DNA of 26,863 bases. It comes from a virus. Every line of letters begins with the position of its first letter. The stretch's first letter is position 1. Below are positions 1 to 26,024 of this stretch, in pieces. The stretch is taken from IMG/VR virus record IMGVR_UViG_3300005935_000106, positions 1 through 26,863 of that record; one strand, written 5' to 3'. Position numbers and translations under genes: made by a program. The notes beneath the pieces were generated by a model, which saw only the letters and a program-made list of their open reading frames with translations, was not told the origin of the DNA and searched no databases.

Positions 1-12
1 AAGAAATCTACA

Positions 13-22
13 AAATTATAAT
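13..22 (+). promoter_or_regulatory. Candidate TATA box for the 5' structured RNA
   Basis: The run AAATTATAAT resembles the archaeal TATA boxes seen elsewhere in this window. Its centre lies about 26 bases upstream of position 41-43, which is where the first helix of the structured RNA begins. This is position-based inference only; the RNA could equally begin upstream of the window. Confidence 0.35.
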
Positions 23-40
23 CAAAGGAAGGCAACGGAA

Positions 41-390
41 AGGACAGATCCACGGTACCTTTATACAATATAACGTGTAGAGCAATGGCAAGTGTACAAT
101 TCCTCCGTCCTGTCCTATGTCATAGTTATCTGTTTACGTCCAACAAATAGAGAACAGTTTAAAGTTTGCCATACCTAACCAGTATGGCCTTATACTCAAA
201 GGATTAACCTCCTGAGATAAATATTTGAGTGCCCTCGCTCGGAATGACTGGGGGCTTTATACTAAACCCTGGGTCGGGATGATGTCCGTTAACGTTAGTG
301 TCCGTTTGATAGAAACCCTAAGCCAACAGACCGGGTTAGTAATGCTTAATTGCCGAAAACCACAAGTCGGAGATAACAAGTTGGCTCAGG
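41..390 (+). ncRNA. Candidate large structured RNA or long leader ahead of the packaging genes
   Basis: This stretch has no gene on either strand that I can support and is less AT-rich than its surroundings. It contains many perfect complementary segments: 41-47 with 110-116 (7 bp) extended by 52-55 with 105-108; 168-174 with 182-188 (7 bp, 7-nt loop); 194-200 with 224-230 (7 bp, 23-nt loop); 231-236 with 250-255 (6 bp, one G-U); 261-275 with 329-340 (12 paired positions with bulges); 321-327 with 380-386 (7 bp); and 353-356 with 367-370. The sixth set lies partly inside the loop of the fifth, which predicts a pseudoknot. I do not recognise the family. It does not read as rRNA, RNase P RNA, tRNA or a group I intron. 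It could be a free viral RNA in the style of the large ornate phage RNAs, or the 5' leader of the terminase operon. Strand is inferred from gene direction. Confidence 0.55.
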
Positions 391-394
391 ACAC

Positions 395-402
395 TTTATA
401 AT
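395..402 (+). promoter_or_regulatory. Candidate TATA box for the packaging operon
   Basis: TTTATAAT lies about 40 bases before the ATG at 438, placing a start of transcription near 424 and giving a short leader. It sits just 3' of the last predicted helix of the structured RNA, so the RNA and the operon may be separate transcripts. Confidence 0.4.
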
Positions 403-437
403 CATTAATTATCGGGGGATAAGTTCAAAAAACTAAA

Positions 438-3244: not shown

Positions 3245-4468
3245 ATGGGTGCTGTAATAAGTAACGTCTTTGAGCCTTTTCCTTGGCAAATACCTGCGCT
3301 TAGAGATAAGTCGCCAACAGTTCTTTTAACAGGTGGAGCTGGCGGTGGTAAATCTCGATGTGCCTATGAAAAGCTCCATGCTTATTTAATGAAATATCCT
3401 GGAGCTACTGGCTTACTTCTTAGAAAAGATAAAACATCACTAAGTAATTCCGCATTACTTGCAATACAGTACGGTGTTATGAATAATGATCCTAAAATAA
3501 AGATGATTAGATCCCTTAGTAGGTTCGAGTATTGGAATGGTAGTTTTCTTTGTTGGGGTGGCGTATACGATGAAAGACAGCGTGAAGCTCTTAAATCCAT
3601 AGGTAAAGAAGGTAATGTTGATTTCACATTAATGGAAGAAGCAAATGCGTTTTCTGAAGAGGATTATAATCTTATTTTAACAAGGATGCGTGGTACTGCT
3701 GCACCATGGCGACAAATACTGCCGTGTACAAATCCAGACCATCCAAAACACTGGATAAAGAGAAGACTCATTGATGGCAAAGAAGCATCTGTCTATTATT
3801 CTAAAGCTGCAGATAACCCTAATAATCCTGCAGATTACATTGCTAGTTTAAACAAATTAACAGGCGTCCAGAAAGAACGTATGGTATACGGTAAATGGGT
3901 TCGTGCAGAAGGAGTTATCTATAAATCGTTCAATGAAGAGAAACACGTTGTTAATGATTTTGGAATTTCTATACAAGATTATCAACAGATAATATTTGGA
4001 GCTGATGCTAACTTTGCAAAGCCTAGAGCTGGTTTAATAATAGGCATTACAGGAAAGGAATATCATATCATAGATGAATTCTATAAACGAGAAACAGAAG
4101 TTGAACAGCTCATTCATTGGTTAGAAGCAAATGCAAAGGGATTTATGCGACGTATGAATGGTTATCACGATCCGTCAGATCCGCAGAGTGTTATGAAAAT
4201 CAATAATGGCAATATGTTATCGTGTGATAAAGCACAGAACGCGGTTCTACCTGGCATTGTTGCAGTACAAGGTTTATTCCAGGCTAATAAAATAATCATA
4301 CATTCAAGATGCGTTAATTTGATTTCTGAATTATTATCTTATGCTTGGAAAAAAGGCAGAGAAGACGAAACTCCAGAAAAAGAGAATGATCACTTAATGG
4401 ATGCATTACGATATGCGATATATTCTAATGTCCCTAAAGCAAAACCCATACCGGGGCGATTTTTTTAA
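3245..4468 (+). CDS. terL: Terminase large subunit
   Basis: This 407-residue protein is the packaging motor ATPase and nuclease that moves genomic DNA into the prohead through the portal. The N-terminal ATPase shows Walker A GGAGGGKS at residues 30-37, an acidic Walker B DFTLMEEA at 126-133 with the catalytic Glu pair, and a coupling-type motif CTNP further on. The C-terminal nuclease fold starts with FGADANF, placing a likely metal-binding Asp at residue 254, and ends with NDHLMDALRYA, the usual last acidic cluster of the RNase H-like nuclease. Length is in the normal range for compact terminases. The ATG follows directly after the upstream stop. It ends in a T-rich codon run. The call is firm at the family level. 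Confidence 0.95.
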   Translation: MGAVISNVFEPFPWQIPALRDKSPTVLLTGGAGGGKSRCAYEKLHAYLMKYPGATGLLLRKDKTSLSNSALLAIQYGVMNNDPKIKMIRSLSRFEYWNGSFLCWGGVYDERQREALKSIGKEGNVDFTLMEEANAFSEEDYNLILTRMRGTAAPWRQILPCTNPDHPKHWIKRRLIDGKEASVYYSKAADNPNNPADYIASLNKLTGVQKERMVYGKWVRAEGVIYKSFNEEKHVVNDFGISIQDYQQIIFGADANFAKPRAGLIIGITGKEYHIIDEFYKRETEVEQLIHWLEANAKGFMRRMNGYHDPSDPQSVMKINNGNMLSCDKAQNAVLPGIVAVQGLFQANKIIIHSRCVNLISELLSYAWKKGREDETPEKENDHLMDALRYAIYSNVPKAKPIPGRFF

Positions 4469-4491
4469 TAAAAAAAAAGAGAGTGTGATAT

Positions 4492-4701
4492 GTGAAAACA
4501 ATACAAGACATTATGAAGGATATACTGGATGGTAAGGAATTTTCAAGGCAAGACATTGCGAAAGAGTTAGATACTAGAATACAACATGCTTCAAGAATAT
4601 TTAATAATTTGAAGAAATTTGATGAGTTGGAAGTGTGCTTCAGAAAGGAGATTATAAGAAATAAGCCTTTTGCAATAGAGTTTTTGAGAAAAAAAGCTTA
4701 A
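4492..4701 (+). CDS. Small winged-helix-like DNA-binding protein
   Basis: This 69-residue protein begins with a GTG codon preceded by a purine-rich GAGAGTGTG stretch; the ATG two bases upstream is followed at once by a stop in its frame. The sequence reads as helix (TIQDIMKDIL), then FSRQDIAKELD and TRIQHASRIFNNLKKFDELE, a helix-turn-helix pattern with a following strand, as in minimal winged helix domains. It lies between the large terminase and the promoter of the portal gene, so it could control the head operon. That role is inference. The family is not identified more closely. Confidence 0.55.
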   Translation: MKTIQDIMKDILDGKEFSRQDIAKELDTRIQHASRIFNNLKKFDELEVCFRKEIIRNKPFAIEFLRKKA

Positions 4702-4703
4702 TA

Positions 4704-4717
4704 ATATTTAAAGTATA
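4704..4717 (+). promoter_or_regulatory. Archaeal-type promoter of the head operon
   Basis: ATATTTAAAGTATA is centred about 27 bases before the portal ATG at 4737, which lacks a ribosome binding site. The arrangement fits a TATA box driving a leaderless transcript. Confidence 0.65.
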
Positions 4718-4736
4718 ACAATCTTTATATTACAAA

Positions 4737-6266
4737 ATGGATAAAAATTCTGACCAATCTCCGCTTCCAGAAAATGGTAATATACCTATGGGTGAAAGTA
4801 AAATACCTATCGATACTGCAAAGTCACCACCACATTATTCTGCATATGGGTTAAGTACGGGCGATTATTGGAAGGCAACTATTACAAATACAGATTTCTA
4901 TAAAACGAGAACAAGAGATGGTATAGGTAAAAAGATTGTTGTTAAATTGAAATCTGAATTATGGAAGAAAGGTTTCACGGTAACTCCTGATAAATATCAA
5001 ACACTCATAGACGAATATCTTATGACCCAAATTGTTAAATATGCTTGGGATAATGCCTATACTTTCGGATGGTGTCTTATTTATGTTGGTTATCCGGATG
5101 TTAAAACTATTAACGATTATGCAACAGAAGCTAACTTAAATCAAACTCCTGATTATTTCTTTGTCGTTCCGCCAACATGGGTAGAGGGCGATATCAAGAA
5201 AGACCATCAAGGCAAAGACCCAGAAACTTATACGATAACTTCAGAATCTGGTACTGGTTTTAAAGTACATCGAACTCGTATGATTAGAGCACATCTAAAT
5301 CCTGAAGAAAGAAGCAATTATGAATCCGCATATAATGCTTTAGATGTTGCCGATAATATTCTTTGGAGCGTAGGTCAAACATTATGGCGATATGCACAAG
5401 GCTTTCCCGTGCTTACTGTGAAAGATCCAGAAAATGTAGTTGATACGGATGGTACGCTTAAATCAGAGATACAAATATTACAGGACGATAATATTCTTAC
5501 TAATATAAATTCGCTTGCTGGTTTTATCGGCGAAGACAGATATAATTTGGATTTCAAAGGTGTTGAAGGTAAAGCATTAAAGCCCGGTGAATATTGGGAA
5601 ATATGTCTCGATTATTTGGCTATGGCAATAGATATACCTAAAGATATTCTAAGGGGTATAAGTGCGGGTGCAGTTACAGGTTCTGAAATAAACTTACAAG
5701 ATTTCTATTCAACAGTACACGCTAAACAAAAAGATGAAGTTGAACCAATCTATAATTCTATGTTTGCAAGATTAAAATTGTTACCTCCTGAATACGAATG
5801 GATTCCGTTATTTGAACAGAATGAGAAAGAAGTGGCTGAGACATTAAAATTAACTGTAGAAGCCGCGTGTCTTGCAAAACAATGCGGGGCTATTAGTAAA
5901 GAATCAGTCTTAGAAATACTGAAGAATAGATTTCCGTTCTTAGAGAAATTAAACCTTCAACCTGGCGAAGAACCAACCGAAACTGGAACTCCGAAATTTA
6001 AACCGATAGATCAATTATATAATGTTCATTTCGATCCTAAATTTATAAAATCCCAGTATGATATTTCTGATGCGGAACTATTCAAGCAACGTGTTAATAT
6101 GGCTGATGATACAAGTAACCTTCCAAAGAAATCCCAAAGAGTGGAAAAACAATACATGCGAGATATGAGCAAACTCTATAAGAAGAGTGAAGTGCAAGTT
6201 ACTAATTTAATGCAGGCGTTTAATACTGATGCAGACCCATTTATGAAAGAGTATTGGGAGGAATAA
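4737..6266 (+). CDS. Portal protein
   Basis: This 509-residue protein is placed right after the large terminase and just before the Mu F-like head protein, the standard slot of the portal. The sequence has the portal pattern: a polar N-terminus, a long alpha/beta region with DYWKATITNTDFYKTRTRDG, a helical stem region, a segment YLAMAIDIPKDILRGISAG with GSEINLQDFYSTVHAKQKDE typical of DUF1073-like and SPP1-like portals, and a C-terminal helical part. Portals form the dodecameric vertex through which DNA enters and leaves, and where the connector and tail attach. The start is leaderless under the promoter at 4704-4717. Family assignment is by order and pattern; confidence is high for portal, lower for the subfamily. 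Confidence 0.9.
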   Translation: MDKNSDQSPLPENGNIPMGESKIPIDTAKSPPHYSAYGLSTGDYWKATITNTDFYKTRTRDGIGKKIVVKLKSELWKKGFTVTPDKYQTLIDEYLMTQIVKYAWDNAYTFGWCLIYVGYPDVKTINDYATEANLNQTPDYFFVVPPTWVEGDIKKDHQGKDPETYTITSESGTGFKVHRTRMIRAHLNPEERSNYESAYNALDVADNILWSVGQTLWRYAQGFPVLTVKDPENVVDTDGTLKSEIQILQDDNILTNINSLAGFIGEDRYNLDFKGVEGKALKPGEYWEICLDYLAMAIDIPKDILRGISAGAVTGSEINLQDFYSTVHAKQKDEVEPIYNSMFARLKLLPPEYEWIPLFEQNEKEVAETLKLTVEAACLAKQCGAISKESVLEILKNRFPFLEKLNLQPGEEPTETGTPKFKPIDQLYNVHFDPKFIKSQYDISDAELFKQRVNMADDTSNLPKKSQRVEKQYMRDMSKLYKKSEVQVTNLMQAFNTDADPFMKEYWEE

Positions 6267-8189: not shown

Positions 8190-8602
8190 TGGCTACAATA
8201 TTACATCCAATGCCTTATCCTACACGGAATAAGAATTTCAGAGCTGCAGGTACTATTTCACCAGGCGATTTAGTAGTTGTAGATTCAAGCGGTTATGTTA
8301 CAAGAACTACTGAAAGTTCTGATGACGAATGGATTGGACAAGCTTCATACAATGCAAGTCAATTTCAAGCTAATGATAGAGATTATTATAGTTCCGGTGA
8401 TCAATGTGAAGTTCATCTAAGGGGCGATGTAAGAAAAACACCTTTATCTGTAACAACTGCATTAATTACTCCAGGTAATTTTGTAAAACTAGGTTCACCA
8501 GGTAAAGTTGCAGTCGAAGCAACAGCCGCAACAAAGACATTGAATACAGTTGGTATGGTAATCGTAGGCGGTTCATCAACTTGTGAATGGATTGAACTTT
8601 GA
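8189..8602 (+). CDS. Probable capsid decoration protein
   Basis: This 137-residue beta-rich protein overlaps the previous stop by one base (TAATG) and precedes the major capsid gene. It is rich in Gly, Ser, Thr and Val, with ISPGDLVVVDSSGYV near residues 23-37, DQCEVHLRGDVRK in the middle and TPGNFVKLGSPGKVAVEA near 93-110. This repeated Pro-Gly-Asp/Asn-x-Val strand pattern is that of the DUF2190 / decoration type beta-barrel that binds the outside of HK97-fold heads. Position agrees. GGGTGATGA upstream serves as its binding site. The call is moderately firm; a minor head protein is the alternative. Confidence 0.65.
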   Translation: MATILHPMPYPTRNKNFRAAGTISPGDLVVVDSSGYVTRTTESSDDEWIGQASYNASQFQANDRDYYSSGDQCEVHLRGDVRKTPLSVTTALITPGNFVKLGSPGKVAVEATAATKTLNTVGMVIVGGSSTCEWIEL

Positions 8603-8612
8603 GGTGACTAAG

Positions 8613-9536
8613 ATGAAAAATAATAATGATGCGAGCGCAACTTCCTTTCTGACAGAAGGCGAAGTTAAGGAAATCGAAAACGTTTTCCTAACAGAACCTG
8701 ACAGAGCACTTACTTTTGATAAGGTTTTCCCAACAAAGCAAATGAAAAATCCAAATGCTAAATCTGGTGAATACTATGTCGAGAGTGATGATAGTGTTCT
8801 TGCTACTTTTGTAACTCGACTTAGAGATGCTAAGAATGTTACAGTACAGGGTAGACAAGTAACTTATTCAACATACAGACCTGCTTTATCGTATAATCTT
8901 GAAATGGCTGAAATTGAGCAATCAAGAATTTACAATACGCCTATTGATATCCGTGTTGTAAGACGTATGGTGAGGAAAATTTGGAATAAAATGAATTCCT
9001 TCGCTTGGGTTGGAGATTCTGAGTATGGTGTTAGTGGTGTCGTTGATAGTATTTCAAGCATGACTACATCTGTAGGTGCGGATATTTCTGCAATGACTAC
9101 ACCTTCAGCAATTGCAAACACGTTTATCAAAGCTTTCCAGGATTTACCTGCAAAATATAGAGAAAATTACACATATAATTTGGTTATGCCAGATGCTGTT
9201 TTAAAGTATGTTAAACAGATCGGAAATCAGACTAATGATAAGTCTGCATTTAATCAGATCCTTGACTCTATATCTCAGGTTAAAAGTATTCTACCGGAAG
9301 GTCAACTTGATGAAGCTACTGCAACGGGTGGCGGTTCTACAGTGGCTAAAGGTATTGCTTTCTTCGTTCCAACAGATGAAGATGCGACAAGAATACCTAT
9401 TGGATATTTGCCAAGAAATCATATGGAAGCTAAGCCAAAAGACCAAGAGATTGATGGTTCTGGCGAAGCAAGAATGGGTCCTGTTGAATTAACTTTTCCC
9501 GAAGCATATCTGTATGTAACTACATTACTAGGTTAA
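8613..9536 (+). CDS. Major capsid protein, HK97 fold
   Basis: The protein is 307 residues when started at the ATG at 8613, which has GAGGTGACTAAG in front, an excellent GGTGA site. An in-frame ATG at 8583 would add 10 residues but lacks a site and overlaps the previous gene. Features of the HK97 fold as seen in DUF2184 and encapsulin-like capsids are an N-terminal arm, a helix with RRMVRKIWNKMNSFAWVGD followed by YGVSGVVD (the usual 'F-x-G-D ... G-x-x-G' segment), and a late strand-rich P/A domain ending in PEAYLYVTTLL. It lies after the scaffold and is followed by a strong terminator, consistent with a highly expressed end-of-unit gene. There is no long N-terminal delta domain, which agrees with a separate scaffold. 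Confidence 0.9.
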   Translation: MKNNNDASATSFLTEGEVKEIENVFLTEPDRALTFDKVFPTKQMKNPNAKSGEYYVESDDSVLATFVTRLRDAKNVTVQGRQVTYSTYRPALSYNLEMAEIEQSRIYNTPIDIRVVRRMVRKIWNKMNSFAWVGDSEYGVSGVVDSISSMTTSVGADISAMTTPSAIANTFIKAFQDLPAKYRENYTYNLVMPDAVLKYVKQIGNQTNDKSAFNQILDSISQVKSILPEGQLDEATATGGGSTVAKGIAFFVPTDEDATRIPIGYLPRNHMEAKPKDQEIDGSGEARMGPVELTFPEAYLYVTTLLG

Positions 9537-11012: not shown

Positions 11013-11412
11013 GATTACGTTTAAAGCACAATTAAAAGATAAAGCATTGAGGGCGTCTCTTTCTGAATTAAAAAAAGAATATCCAAATATGGCTAAAGCT
11101 TATAAGATTGAGAAAGTAGAACAGGCTGCACGAATCGGAAGAGAAAAATTCACTCCATTTAAAACAGGAAATTTAAAATCCACTTTGAGACATGAAGTTC
11201 GTGATGATGACAGGGTTTTTTATGTTGCTGGCGGAATTCAAGGCAAGGGCAAAGGCGGAAGCGTATTTGTTAATTACGCATATTGGGTAAACAGAGGCAC
11301 TTCTAAATTTGAAGGGTTCTTTTTTCTTGAGAAATCTGCCGAGGAATCGCTAAGCACAACAAATTCTTTCGCTGATGAAGCCCTTCGGTCATGGTTGAAA
11401 ATAATAGATTAA
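11005..11412 (+). CDS. HK97 gp10-like neck / tail completion protein
   Basis: This 135-residue protein matches the HK97 gp10 family pattern. A helical N-terminal half carries FTPFKTGNLKSTLRHEV, where T-G-N/x-L-x-x-S/T is the hallmark, followed by VNYAYWVNRGTSKFEGFFF, the 'Y-A-x-x-v-x-x-G-T' motif, and a C-terminal helix. Family members lie in the neck between connector and tail tube. The ATG at 11005 has GAGGAAG in front. The gene ends just ahead of the second copy of the repeated promoter element. The call is good at family level. Confidence 0.75.
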   Translation: MAKITFKAQLKDKALRASLSELKKEYPNMAKAYKIEKVEQAARIGREKFTPFKTGNLKSTLRHEVRDDDRVFYVAGGIQGKGKGGSVFVNYAYWVNRGTSKFEGFFFLEKSAEESLSTTNSFADEALRSWLKIID

Positions 11413-22424: not shown

Positions 22425-22712
22425 ATGGCGAAAGAAAAAGAAGAGGAATTAACACTTGAAGAGATAACACAGCCTGAATACATGCAACTCATAAACGAAT
22501 CAACGCAAGCATTAGAACGACAGGAAGAGAAGTATCTGGCTAAGATAGATACTATCAAGAAATATATCACTGACTTATACTGTCAATATAGAACAACACA
22601 AATGTACGAAATGGATAGTAATGTCAAATATTTCTTTGATTCCAAAAGTGGCGAATTATCATACAAAACAACAAAGCGCCCTAAATATATAGGTTTTAAC
22701 GATGAAGCATAA
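22425..22712 (+). CDS. Hypothetical helical protein
   Basis: The protein is 95 residues from the ATG at 22425, with GTTGAT in front; the in-frame TTG at 22416 would destroy that spacing. It starts with a highly acidic helix (KEKEEELTLEEITQPEYMQL), goes on with a coiled-coil-like segment (RQEEKYLAKIDTIKKYITDL) and ends with a Tyr/Lys-rich segment. No domain recognised. It overlaps the next gene by 11 bases, so it is probably cotranslated with the nuclease-like protein and could be its partner. Confidence 0.55.
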   Translation: MAKEKEEELTLEEITQPEYMQLINESTQALERQEEKYLAKIDTIKKYITDLYCQYRTTQMYEMDSNVKYFFDSKSGELSYKTTKRPKYIGFNDEA

Positions 22713-23028
22713 TAACATAATATTCTCTCTGGAAAATAGACTTGCAAGGATTAATCCTAATAGACTTATAGAGACAGAGCTCGAATATATCCTTGAAGAT
22801 GGTACTGAAGGAGAAGCAGATATTATAGTGATTAATATAGCACAGAATTACGCTTATGGCACAGAAGTTAAAACTAATGATAATTATAAAAATAGACTTA
22901 AAGCAGATATACAACTCTTGAAAGATAAACAATATATTTTTGAAAAATACGGGATCACTAGGGTTCATAAGTTCTACGCTTATAGTGATGATGATAACGG
23001 ATATGTGATTGAGCATGTTAGACCTTGA
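22702..23028 (+). CDS. PD-(D/E)XK nuclease-like protein
   Basis: This 108-residue protein shows the core of the PD-(D/E)XK fold: Glu26 in the first helix (LIETELEYIL), Asp40 in GEADIIVINI, then Glu55-Val-Lys57 in YGTEVKTND, and a following helix with Gln71 (KADIQLLKDKQYIFEKYG). The order Glu, Asp, Glu-x-Lys, Gln is that of many small viral nucleases, including Holliday junction resolvase-like and restriction-type enzymes. The small size leaves only the core. It could process recombination intermediates or degrade host DNA. It overlaps genes on both sides. Catalytic residues are present, so activity is plausible; the substrate cannot be told from sequence. Confidence 0.65.
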   Translation: MKHNNIIFSLENRLARINPNRLIETELEYILEDGTEGEADIIVINIAQNYAYGTEVKTNDNYKNRLKADIQLLKDKQYIFEKYGITRVHKFYAYSDDDNGYVIEHVRP

Positions 23029-23302
23029 AGAACTCACACACATACATTATGATTCAGATGCATATAAATCGATTCTAAGAGGCTTTAAAGAAAAGCTACC
23101 CAATATATACAATTCATTGCAAAGCCTTATTCGTGGGCTAGAAAACGCAACACAATCGAAAGATACGGTGTTATTCAATCATTTAGAGTTCTTATATGCA
23201 CACGCAATGGGATATTACCAATTTTTGATCACAGAACATGAAAAAAACGTATTCAATAATATCTATATTACGCAAAGAGATGCTTTCAAAAAGAAAAAAT
23301 AA
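23015..23302 (+). CDS. Hypothetical helical protein
   Basis: The protein is 95 residues from the ATG at 23015, overlapping the nuclease-like gene by 14 bases; the in-frame TTG at 23009 is possible. It is predicted mostly helical (YKSILRGFKEKLPNIYNSLQ, LFNHLEFLYAHAMGYYQFLI), with His and Tyr in the second helix, and ends in four Lys after QRDAF. No family recognised. It is the last gene before the palindrome-rich control region, whose first repeat begins within its stop codon. Confidence 0.55.
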   Translation: MLDLEELTHIHYDSDAYKSILRGFKEKLPNIYNSLQSLIRGLENATQSKDTVLFNHLEFLYAHAMGYYQFLITEHEKNVFNNIYITQRDAFKKKK

Positions 23303-23337
23303 TACGTATGATTTGGTGTTTTGTACGTATTGGCGCC
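23301..23337 (+). repeat. Palindrome repeat A with GGCGCC box
   Basis: A 30-bp unit (23301-23330) begins AATACGTATGATTT and ends TGTTTTGTACGTAT, so its ends form an inverted pair ATACGTA...TACGTAT. It is followed by TGGCGCC. The unit recurs at 23466-23495 with 28 of 30 bases the same. Confidence 0.9.
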
Positions 23338-23375
23338 TGAACACCCCCGCCCCTTGACTTCTTATGGAAAACTCT

Positions 23376-23388
23376 ATTTCTCTTTTTT
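23376..23388 (+). terminator. T-rich terminator after the helical protein gene
   Basis: A pyrimidine run ending in six T residues (23383-23388) lies 75 bases past the last stop, inside the palindrome region. It would end the transcript that begins near 22312. Confidence 0.45.
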
Positions 23389-23404
23389 GGATGTTTTAAT
23401 AGTG

Positions 23405-23425
23405 TACGTACGTACTACGTACGTA
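23405..23425 (+). repeat. Double TACGTACGTA palindrome
   Basis: TACGTACGTA occurs twice, separated by one C. Each copy is its own reverse complement, so the site presents overlapping TACGTA half-sites on both strands, in the middle between repeats A and B. Confidence 0.9.
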
Positions 23426-23438
23426 TAGAAAAAAAAGC

Positions 23439-23459
23439 ATTAAATATATAATATATATA
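23439..23459. other. AT-only tract beside repeat B
   Basis: About 20 bases of only A and T, beginning ATTAAATATATAATATATA, adjoin the GGCGCC box of repeat B. It could be a DNA unwinding element of an origin or an extra TATA box. I see no gene placed correctly for a promoter here. Confidence 0.4.
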
Positions 23460-23495
23460 GGCGCCAATACGTATGATTTATTGTTTTGTACGTAT
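23460..23495 (+). repeat. Palindrome repeat B with GGCGCC box
   Basis: GGCGCC followed by the same 30-bp unit as repeat A. Because the box is on the other side of the unit, GGCGCCAATACGTA here is the exact reverse complement of TACGTATTGGCGCC at 23324-23337. The sequence upstream of the next promoter therefore holds both a direct and an inverted relation to repeat A. Confidence 0.9.
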
Positions 23496-23521
23496 AATGT
23501 GAAAATCCTTGTGAAAAAAGA

Positions 23522-23533
23522 AATATTTAAATA
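23522..23533 (+). promoter_or_regulatory. TATA box downstream of the palindrome array
   Basis: AATATTTAAATA is centred about 29 bases before the ATG at 23557 and starts 26 bases after repeat B ends. A protein bound at repeat B would sit just upstream of the basal transcription factors. Confidence 0.6.
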
Positions 23534-23556: not shown

Positions 23557-23790
23557 ATGAACGATACGAATAAACTCGAAAAGATCGAGATTTCTAAAAA
23601 TAACGGTAATTTTTATTATACTGGGACTGTTGAATCTCCGGATAAAGATGGTTTTGTAACTATTAAAACTGTGCGTGGTGAAGTTCTTAAATTCAGAAAA
23701 GAACAAATAATGCAAAGAAGACGAATTGATACTAAATTAGAGGATGATACGAATGGGAAAATCTCACAAAACAATAAGTATTCCGGATGA
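23557..23790 (+). CDS. Small beta-barrel-like protein (Sm/SH3-like candidate)
   Basis: The ATG at 23557 fits the promoter distance; an in-frame ATG at 23533 lies inside the TATA box and would not be on the mRNA. The 77-residue product has an early strand set, KIEISKNNGNFYYTGTVESP, a turn PDKDG, then FVTIKTVRGEVLKFRKEQI. This 'Y-x-G-x-V-x-x-x-d-x-x-G-x-V-x-I-k-x-x-x-G-e-x-l-x-f-x-x-x-x-I' pattern is the five-strand small barrel seen in Sm-like and related nucleic-acid-binding proteins. The last 20 residues overlap the next gene. The assignment is a fold guess only. Confidence 0.5.
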   Translation: MNDTNKLEKIEISKNNGNFYYTGTVESPDKDGFVTIKTVRGEVLKFRKEQIMQRRRIDTKLEDDTNGKISQNNKYSG

Positions 23791-24151
23791 TATTTCTCAA
23801 GATATACAAAAACGGAAGGAAGAGTGCAGCTTTAATTTTTCAGATTGGGTTGAAAAGATATATAGAGATTCTTTCATGAGTATTGATGATAAAAAACGTG
23901 AGATTGCAGAGTCTGAAAAAAGAATAATACTTCTAAAAGATGAAATCGATCAAATAGAAATTCGTAAAGAAACATTTGGTAGTTCTTTAACACGTGATGA
24001 GCTTAGATTCATAAAACAAATCCCTAAATTATTATTTGAAGGAAAAGAATTAGAACCGTTATGTACTCGTTTTAATATTACATTTAAGAGAAAATTCACA
24101 AAACAGGAATTGAAATCATATGTTAAGTTCTATAGTAAAAAATCAAGCTGA
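23753..24151 (+). CDS. Ribbon-helix-helix DNA-binding protein with coiled coil
   Basis: The 132-residue protein starts at ATG 23753 (MGKSHKTISIPDD); ATG 23744 in frame is also possible. Residues 6-30 follow the ribbon-helix-helix form: strand KTISIPDD, helix ISQDIQKRKEECS, then FNFSDWVEKIYRDSF as the second helix. Such domains dimerise and bind short palindromes. The rest has a charged coiled coil (REIAESEKRIILLKDEIDQI) and a helical C-terminus rich in Lys. It lies in the first operon after the TACGTA palindromes, which would be natural operators for it. Autoregulation is therefore likely but not shown. Confidence 0.65.
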   Translation: MGKSHKTISIPDDISQDIQKRKEECSFNFSDWVEKIYRDSFMSIDDKKREIAESEKRIILLKDEIDQIEIRKETFGSSLTRDELRFIKQIPKLLFEGKELEPLCTRFNITFKRKFTKQELKSYVKFYSKKSS

Positions 24152-24536
24152 TGTTAAGAAATTAAGATATATCTATATTATAGATGTTGATAATAGAGGC
24201 AACAAGAGTAAGTTTTACGGTATTAAATTATGTCATTATGTGGGACAAACCGATGATATTATCAGAAGATTGAAACAACATATCCTGTGTTTGAATAGTA
24301 AATTCCTCTCATATAATTTCAGAAATGCTCAGAAGAAATTAGTTTATGTTGATTATATATATGGTACTGAATATGAAGCCATAGAGTTAGAAGTTAAATT
24401 AAAAATAATGAAGCGAGATAAGAAAATAGATTTGATTTCTTCTGAACAGAATAAATTGATTAAGTATGTGCCGTTGAAAGCCATAATTTTAAAGAAATAT
24501 CATAAAGATGAAGAACAAATATGTATTAGAATGTGA
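24120..24536 (+). CDS. GIY-YIG family nuclease
   Basis: This 138-residue protein shows the GIY-YIG core: YIYII at residues 17-21 (first motif), a longer than usual insert, then HYVGQTDDIIRRLKQH at 39-54 with the second motif Tyr40-Val-Gly, Arg49/Arg50 and His54, and the catalytic Glu in the segment YEAIELE at about 85-91. The family cuts DNA with one metal ion and includes homing, repair and phage enzymes. No DNA-binding extension of the homing type is seen; a short basic C-terminal end follows. The start overlaps the preceding gene by 32 bases and there is no later start codon before the first motif. It neighbours a DNA methyltransferase, so it might be the matching nuclease, but a general viral nuclease is as likely. 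Confidence 0.75.
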   Translation: MLSSIVKNQADVKKLRYIYIIDVDNRGNKSKFYGIKLCHYVGQTDDIIRRLKQHILCLNSKFLSYNFRNAQKKLVYVDYIYGTEYEAIELEVKLKIMKRDKKIDLISSEQNKLIKYVPLKAIILKKYHKDEEQICIRM

Positions 24537-24542
24537 TTGAAA

Positions 24543-25901
24543 GTGGAAAATAAAATAAGAATGTTTGAGGGATGTGCGGGTTATGGTGGCGGATCGTTTG
24601 GATTAAAGAAAGCAGGAATACAATTTGAGTGTGTTGGCTATTCAGAGATTGATAAGTACGCAATACAATGCTATGAACATAACCATAGAGAAGTTGTTGA
24701 TGATTGGGTTCCATATAATGGCTCAAAACGATTTATGGGAACAATGAAAATTCCTAAGAATTATGGTAATATATCTCTAATAAATCCAGAAGATATTCCT
24801 GATTTTGATTTATTCTTAGCGGGGTTCCCATGCCAATCATTTAGTATTGCAGGTAAAAGAGAAGGCTTTGAATCTAAAAAAACAGGCAATATATTCTTTG
24901 ATATATGTAAAATACTAAACCATAAGAAACCTGGGTATGTCGTATTAGAAAATGTGGCAGGTATCTTAAGTCATGATAATGGTAAAACTCATAAAACAGT
25001 TTTAGATACATTAAAGAAAATAGGTTATGGTGTGGCGTGGAAATGTCTTAATTCTAAAAATTATGGGATTCCTCAGAATAGAGAACGTGTCTGGTATGTG
25101 TGTAAATTAGGCGGTTGGGATTTCATGGAGTTTACGTTTCCCGAGAAAGAGAAATTGAAATTAAAACTTAAAGATATTCTTGAAGATGAAGTTGATGAGA
25201 AGTATTATCTGAAAGAAGAAACTGTAAAACAATTATTACCAAACCAAGATGTATCGTATTGTATTGATGCTAATTATTTCAAGGGGACAAATATAAAAGG
25301 GTTTATCGAAAAAAAAAGATGGCAAATTATTCAAGTAAATAATCCAAAGCATTCTAATGATAGATTATATTCAGAAAAAGGAATAAGCCCAACATTAAAT
25401 GCTATGCAAGGTGGAAACAGACAACCGTTCATAGTAGCGTCGCGAGGAAGAAATCCTAAGGATCCTTCAGATAGAACAACGGGAAGTCCTACAGAACAAA
25501 GACTAGAACCGCAGACAGACGGGACGAGTAATTGCTTATCAACAGTTCAGAAAGATAATTATGTATGTGTTAAGAATGCAACAGCTAAAAGGTATCAAGA
25601 AGTAAAACCTGGCGATGGAATAAACCTCGAACAACCAAATTCTGAAACAAGGCGTGGAAGAGTACAATCGCAATCTGTTGGTACATTGCAAACAAATGAC
25701 CAACGTGACGTATTAACTGAAGATATGAGAATAAGAAAGCTTACACCGACCGAGTGTTTCAGACTCATGGGGTTCTTAGATGACGGAATAAACCTAGAAG
25801 GATTATCAAATTCTCAACGCTATAAATTAGCTGGGAACGGTTGGGATATTAATTTAGTAAGCAAGATATTTAAGAGATTATTTAGTAATAAATTTCAATA
25901 A
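24543..25901 (+). CDS. DNA (cytosine-5)-methyltransferase
   Basis: The protein is 452 residues from the GTG at 24543, which has GTGAT five bases upstream; the TTG at 24537 is an alternative. Motif I is FEGCAGYGGGSFGL (8-21) for SAM binding, motif IV FPCQSFS with catalytic Cys97, motif VI LENV (135-138), motif VIII QNRERVW (178-184), then a variable target recognition region, and motifs IX RKLTPTECFRLMGF and X KLAGNGWDINLV at the end. All catalytic motifs are intact. The recognition region contains GRNPKDPSDRTTGSPTEQRL, a segment I know from many phage C5 methyltransferases of bacteria, so the gene probably moved between virus groups. It likely protects viral DNA from host restriction. The target site cannot be read from sequence. 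Confidence 0.92.
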   Translation: MENKIRMFEGCAGYGGGSFGLKKAGIQFECVGYSEIDKYAIQCYEHNHREVVDDWVPYNGSKRFMGTMKIPKNYGNISLINPEDIPDFDLFLAGFPCQSFSIAGKREGFESKKTGNIFFDICKILNHKKPGYVVLENVAGILSHDNGKTHKTVLDTLKKIGYGVAWKCLNSKNYGIPQNRERVWYVCKLGGWDFMEFTFPEKEKLKLKLKDILEDEVDEKYYLKEETVKQLLPNQDVSYCIDANYFKGTNIKGFIEKKRWQIIQVNNPKHSNDRLYSEKGISPTLNAMQGGNRQPFIVASRGRNPKDPSDRTTGSPTEQRLEPQTDGTSNCLSTVQKDNYVCVKNATAKRYQEVKPGDGINLEQPNSETRRGRVQSQSVGTLQTNDQRDVLTEDMRIRKLTPTECFRLMGFLDDGINLEGLSNSQRYKLAGNGWDINLVSKIFKRLFSNKFQ

Positions 25902-25931: not shown

Positions 25932-26024
25932 TCCAAGGGGTCGGTTGGGGAACTCATGATGTAAAGGGCAACCCGGTATTTCTTAGGAATTATCACCTCC
26001 AAGTACCCGACCCCGCCTTTTTTC
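25932..26024 (+). ncRNA. Small structured RNA with anti-Shine-Dalgarno sequence
   Basis: An 8-bp closing stem, GGGGTCGG at 25937-25944 with CCGACCCC at 26007-26014, encloses about 60 bases and is followed directly by a T-rich terminator. A TATA box at 25903-25910 is at the right distance for a start near 25932. The inside includes ATCACCTCC at 25992-26000, identical to the 3' end of archaeal 16S rRNA that pairs with ribosome binding sites, and a weak inner helix CTTAGG with CCT..AAG that would partly cover it. It is GC-rich compared with flanks. It is not a tRNA: no T-loop and no D-arm pattern. It may pair in trans with GGTGAT sites of viral mRNAs, or in cis with the GGAGGTTGAT site at 26095-26104 if transcription reads through. 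Function is inference; the structure and motif are directly visible. Confidence 0.65.
26016..26024 (+). terminator. Terminator of the small RNA
   Basis: CCTTTTTTC directly follows the closing stem of the small RNA. Stem plus T run would end the transcript in either domain of life. Confidence 0.6.

Follow-up and report, generated by a model that had tools for sequence, protein, structure and literature searches.

Among the regulators of archaeal viruses, ribbon-helix-helix (RHH) proteins are reported to bind at distal sites and to spread from these towards the BRE/TATA elements of a promoter (PMC5569661, excerpted text). The closest described examples are SvtR and AvtR, short RHH regulators for which several sites are bound cooperatively and the high-affinity sites are promoter-distal (PMC5569661, excerpted text). 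The repeat array reported here, found in an IMG/VR virus contig, resembles these systems in that it lies beside a gene for a candidate short RHH regulator and could offer several sites for cooperative binding. On balance, it is somewhat more readily explained as a multi-site, probably autoregulatory operator upstream of the operon at 23557-25901 than otherwise.

General features of the viral contig

The contig has 26,863 bases and is referred to here, over its whole length, as the window. The IMG/VR record either found no end repeats or does not give completeness, so genes may be missing and the contig is possibly a fragment. Genes for terminase, portal, head-morphogenesis, head maturation protease and major head proteins were recognised, and the window is therefore a tailed virus or part of one. 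The closest terminases share 24-30% identity with that of the window, and no relatives were matched through the MCP, the RHH-like protein, the 823-aa protein or, in genome_contigs, the 897-aa protein. Comparison of the array with phages and plasmids by blastn returned short chance pieces only, and neither an RNA family nor a tRNA was found in the window. The host is presumed to be an archaeon; the promoter signs look archaeal, and sigma-70-like sites show no excess (22, against 25.7 in shuffles). At the left end of the window (1-437), some 430 bases carry no listed ORF of at least 80 aa. The protein encoded at 22431-22709 has a match to phage Mu Gam that is below threshold (E 6e-4, 20.2 bits against 28.3).

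Organization of the array

The array takes up most of the interval from the ORF at 23009-23302 to the next gene run, and includes the following elements:

23301..23330, unstranded: outer unit 1, AATACGTA...TACGTAT, with two TACGTA at a centre distance of 21 bp
23332..23337, unstranded: GGCGCC box on the inner side of unit 1
23405..23425, unstranded: core, TACGTACGTA-C-TACGTACGTA, with 20/21 positions self-complementary
23439..23459, unstranded: AT-only tract of 21 nt, adjoining the second GGCGCC box
23460..23465, unstranded: GGCGCC box on the inner side of unit 2
23466..23495, unstranded: outer unit 2, 28/30 identical to unit 1 and in the same orientation

A previous sequence-only reading had counted eight TACGTA in about 190 bp, and the count was confirmed: eight of the 11 copies in the window (23303, 23324, 23405, 23409, 23416, 23420, 23468 and 23489) fall within 192 bp, while 1000 Markov-1 shuffles of the window gave at most 3 per 195 bp. 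The two 30-bp units, with 28/30 identical bases and a start-to-start distance of 165, were likewise found where that reading had placed them. No other near-direct repeat of the window is as long, and 60 shuffles gave a maximum of 18 matched bases. The sequences TACGTATGATTT and TGTTTTGTACGTA, which form the ends of the units, are absent from the rest of the window. The double palindrome reported between the units is also present, as the two core decamers separated by a single C. The inverted TACGTA ends attributed to the units do exist; they are partly trivial, since TACGTA reads the same on both strands, and unit 1 has no palindromic symmetry in its interior (18/31 positions self-complementary, 16 of these in the two 8-bp ends). 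GGCGCC has two copies only in the window, at 23332 and 23460, on the inner sides of the two units, and the perfect inverted repeat to which they belong has a length of 15 nt (TACGTATTGGCGCCT, 23324-23338; AGGCGCCAATACGTA, 23459-23473) and not of 14 bp. Measured from centre to centre, the TACGTA of each outer unit are 21 bp apart and the core decamers 11 bp apart, distances of about two turns and one turn of DNA, and the short palindromic sites of the array (21, 11 and 21 bp) are in helical phase.

The array is real and non-random, and probably functional. An accidental cluster without function would fit the lack of any relative of the window virus in which conservation could be seen; the shuffle controls and the recurrence of the layout in another virus (MSTV1, below) speak against it, making this explanation extremely improbable.

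The combination of iterons and an AT-rich element had also led to the suggestion of a replication origin. In such an origin, with which repeats and an AT-only tract in an intergenic gap would agree, the TACGTA would act as iterons, the AT tract would melt and a viral or host Orc1/Cdc6-type initiator would bind. The tract, which may be TATA-like or easily melted, was found beside the box as reported, with 21 nt instead of 20 bp. With five further AT-only runs of 20 nt or more, six in all, the window gives this tract no special standing. The GC-skew has no turning point in the window or at the MSTV1 array, skew being weak evidence given the one-way gene order, and no initiator was found among the scanned ORFs of this possibly fragmentary record. 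The suggestion of an origin found no support in the window, and such a function is considered unlikely.

Promoter and genes next to the array

The genes and the promoter-like element beside the array are as follows:

23009..23302, + strand: upstream ORF, whose stop codon ends at the array edge
23520..23533, + strand: archaeal BRE/TATA-like element, GAAATATTTAAATA, a putative promoter
23557..23790, + strand: small ORF, operon gene 1, with no family match
23753..24151, + strand: RHH-like protein, operon gene 2, with a KTISIPDD strand, two helices, a long helix and a C-terminal helical part
24120..24536, + strand: GIY-YIG domain protein (E 6.8e-5, over the Pfam cut-off)
24537..25901, + strand: C-5 cytosine DNA methyltransferase (E 7e-71)

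The TATA-like element, a consensus-like match and nothing stricter, is located about 25 bp past unit 2. Exact GAAATATTTAWATA occurs twice in the window (23520 and 26036), and both copies precede a gene of the same orientation. Allowing up to two mismatches raises the number of matches to four, where 4.3 are expected, and weight is therefore given to the exact copies alone. In view of its spacing from the TATA-like element, 23557 is the presumed start of the first operon gene, in preference to 23533. The first three genes of the operon overlap, and that at 24537-25901 starts at the next base.

An operon after the array with an RHH gene in it had been proposed; the operon was recovered, while the RHH assignment of the protein at 23753-24151 comes from its KTISIPDD...FSDWVEKIYRDS motif and a weak match of its N-terminal 51 residues to VAPB_antitox (PF02697), with an E of 0.029, under the cut-off. 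The same protein has no match to RHH_1 (PF01402), its structure model is of low confidence (pLDDT 57), and a PDB search with this model gave no match. Since there is no RHH_1 match, a weak VAPB_antitox match and no relative, the pairing of this protein with the array is putative.

The GIY-YIG gene and the C-5 cytosine methyltransferase gene are directly adjacent (24120-25901), possibly as a restriction-modification pair or as a methylase plus an endonuclease. Past them, at 25937-26014, GGGGTCGG...CCGACCCC pairs enclose an intergenic stretch with a fold of -29.2 kcal/mol (z -1.35), to which 16/200 shuffles were equally stable and which has no Rfam match.

A related array in Methanobrevibacter smithii tailed virus 1

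The scan for TACGTACGTA-N(0-3)-TACGTACGTA yielded two contigs, L061 and L062, and no TACGTACGTA-N(0-1)-TACGTACGTA was found in genome_contigs. L062 was rejected as a relative of the array, its match being a simple (TACG)n run. L061 encodes a protein with 99.3% identity to one from Methanobrevibacter smithii tailed virus 1 (MSTV1; L069, PP537965), a virus of M. smithii, which places L061 in the M. smithii virus group. The MSTV1 array (8668-8802) is intergenic and has no annotation in PP537965. Its core of ACGTACGT palindromes (about 8717-8753) is flanked by 28-bp direct repeats (8668 and 8775) with one mismatch; the inner 20 bp of these repeats, TGTAAACATTTATGTTTACA, are unique to them in the MSTV1 genome. 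The array follows by 2 bp a gene annotated as 'putative DNA-binding protein' (8249-8668), which encodes an RHH-like N-terminus. The model of the L061 copy of this protein (pLDDT 77) has two helices where the RHH helices are expected and, beyond these, a 56-residue helix and a small C-terminal domain; it had no significant match in the PDB, and the window and L061 RHH-like proteins gave no alignment when directly compared. Between L061 and MSTV1, the array is identical in 129/129 positions, the adjacent RHH-like genes are 96-97% identical and ERF is 94% identical, and the similarity stops just past the second repeat, where the next gene is replaced. MSTV1 also has a 40-bp near-direct repeat with 2 mismatches at 11399 and 11589, 190 bp apart.

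This virus bears on the origin as well, for it encodes an ORC1/Cdc6 protein (3990-5213), 3.5 kb from an array that is fully conserved with L061; against that, the L084-type prophages and L085, described below, carry the decamer as promoter-proximal sites. The array of the window had also been offered as a partition site, and RHH proteins are centromere binders in some plasmids and archaea; a centromere-like array of this kind or an attachment site for recombination is very unlikely. No ParA-type ATPase or integrase was found in the scanned window ORFs (about a dozen ORFs were outside the scan), the MSTV1 recombinase gene is more than 7 kb from the array, and ParA is not annotated in that genome.

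Occurrence of the decamer next to RHH genes in other viruses

A wider scan of viral contigs for TACGTACGTA-N(4-34)-TACGTACGTA returned 31 contigs. The decamer was paired with an RHH or RHH-like gene in 12 of these, from three lineages (10 prophage-family contigs, L085 and L061), with L085 and L061 counted by sequence motif, both being under the HMM threshold. The ten contigs of the L084-type prophage family have TACGTACGTA-N20/21-TACGTACGTA, a gap length not fixed by the search pattern. In these, the second decamer ends one base ahead of the start codon for an RHH protein of 63 residues (truncated in L079, where the locus ends), which belongs to the HicB family with an E of 1.7e-5, over the cut-off. 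In L085, six exact TACGTACGTA, most of them at distances of 22-23 bp, precede a gene whose RHH-like product has sub-threshold CopG_antitoxin/RHH_7 matches (E 0.024-0.025).

By HMM, 5/29 array contigs had a HicB match no more than 100 bp away from the array, all of the prophage family and comprising the five L084-type members tested, and L098 has an RHH_1 match 8.2 kb from its array. The 21 control contigs, taken from the 33 with the pattern TACGTATTGGCGCC, had three RHH matches in two contigs and none within a control locus; none of the 33 has a TACGTA cluster like that of the window. The decamer scans took in TACGTACGTA only, and a stronger link to RHH genes than that of other palindromes is not claimed. 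In 19/31 pair contigs an RHH gene was not recognised, the neighbours having been read in 12 of these and not one by one in L086, L091, L092, L093, L098, L106 and L107. Starting from the genes, six records of the phage collection were found, five with a homologue of the prophage RHH protein and one with a homologue of the L085 protein; TACGTACGTA was upstream of the homologue in 0/6 records, with a single TACGTA in one, a result that covers the L084 and L085 proteins, the window protein having no known homologue.

At 330-400 of L109, one of the records with a homologue of the prophage RHH protein, an inverted repeat, TGTACCTATT/AATAGGTACG, is present a few bases before the start codon, in upstream DNA that is identical in L110 and L111, at the position where the L084-type prophages carry their decamers. 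Because a different repeat is kept at the same place, this place looks like an operator in which the word varies, and the sequences suggest such a role for the position before the RHH start codon. As far as the scanned sequences go, TACGTACGTA is recurrent, and not universal, beside RHH genes.

The clade of L070, L072, L075 and L078 has intergenic regions of some 350 bp that are dense in ACGTACGT/TACGTA, partly conserved in alignment and followed by a TTATAAA archaeal-like promoter element:

L070, 2261-2610: dense ACGTACGT region
L072, 944-1280: dense ACGTACGT region
L075, 2394-2730: dense ACGTACGT region
L078, 11781-12115: dense ACGTACGT region

No RHH gene was recognised beside these regions (neighbours read in L070 and L078), which speaks for a use of the word by another factor as well. 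In the window, this other factor could be a host regulator, or the methyltransferase itself, acting on the CpG in TACGTA/GGCGCC and switching the promoter by methylation. The C-5 cytosine methyltransferase gene in the operon and the abundance of CpG palindromes in the array agree with an operator of this type, as does the existence of TACGTA arrays without a recognised RHH gene. Methylation as a switch fits less well with TACGTA being just mildly scarce outside the array (3 seen, 4.9 expected) and with no methyltransferase being noted beside the MSTV1, L084 or L085 arrays. An operator for another factor has about the same low probability as the origin. Within the literature searched, no account of TACGTACGTA or TACGTA as an RHH operator was found; TACGTA together with 'ribbon-helix-helix' occurred within oligonucleotides, and together with archaea and 'binding site' in work on maize.

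Proposed function

In the favoured reading as an operator, dimers of the virus-encoded RHH-like protein (operon gene 2) would bind the palindromes in the major groove, and the phasing of the sites, with 11 bp for the core and 21 bp for the outer units, would allow them to be filled cooperatively. Either a bridge between the outer units, which are 165 bp apart, or spreading of the protein from one to the other could block TBP/TFB at the AT tract and the TATA-like element at 23520, and the RHH, GIY-YIG and methyltransferase genes would then be under autoregulation. The layout, the spacing, the promoter-like element, the gene order and the recurrence of the decamer in unrelated viruses are observed; that the RHH-like protein is the binder, that it represses and does not activate, and that it spreads or forms loops, we infer. 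An array beyond chance and in phase, with the operon start and a promoter-like element directly downstream, argues for an operator, and the window protein without a PF01402 match and the pair contigs without a recognised RHH gene argue against it. Support for the operator cluster of the sequence-only reading comes from comparison with three other viral lineages, in which the decamer adjoins RHH or RHH-like genes, and not from the window alone. A broader proposal is rather doubtful: a nested cis-module (outer repeats, TACGTACGTA core, AT tract and RHH/coiled-coil protein) might be common to unrelated archaeal tailed viruses and build a long-range nucleoprotein switch or a replication-start complex, unrelated viral RHH proteins having converged repeatedly on TACGTACGTA.

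If the operator reading is true, this easily searched DNA word would help to locate early operons under RHH control in uncultivated viruses, and the array of MSTV1, a cultivated archaeal virus, would allow a direct bench test of RHH assembly over at least 100 bp. If it is wrong, the MSTV1 array is still a conserved and unexplained regulatory or replication element.

Comparison with known systems

The consensus sites of SvtR and AvtR differ from TACGTA, being ATnnTTCAAnAnnnnnAAAATG and ATnnTnnTAnnACnTT in the excerpted text of PMC5569661. The L084-type prophages share with the window the TACGTACGTA pairs, in their case immediately before the RHH gene; however, they have two sites only, 30-31 bp apart and abutting the start codon, no outer units, and a GC of 0.45-0.51, unlike the window. 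L085 also has several TACGTACGTA upstream of an RHH-like gene, whereas its regular spacing of about 22-23 bp is without nested repeats and a terminase-like gene follows. Judged by sequence, the MSTV1 array is the nearest in layout to that of the window: in both, near-identical direct repeats flank a palindrome core, an AT-rich stretch is found just before the second repeat, and the array adjoins RHH-like DNA-binding genes. In contrast to the window, the outer units of MSTV1 (TGTAAACATTTATGTTTACA) are without TACGTA, there are no GGCGCC boxes, and two RHH-like genes are located upstream of the array, where the window has one downstream. The window array probably belongs among the RHH-type operator arrays, with a nested layout that is unusual.
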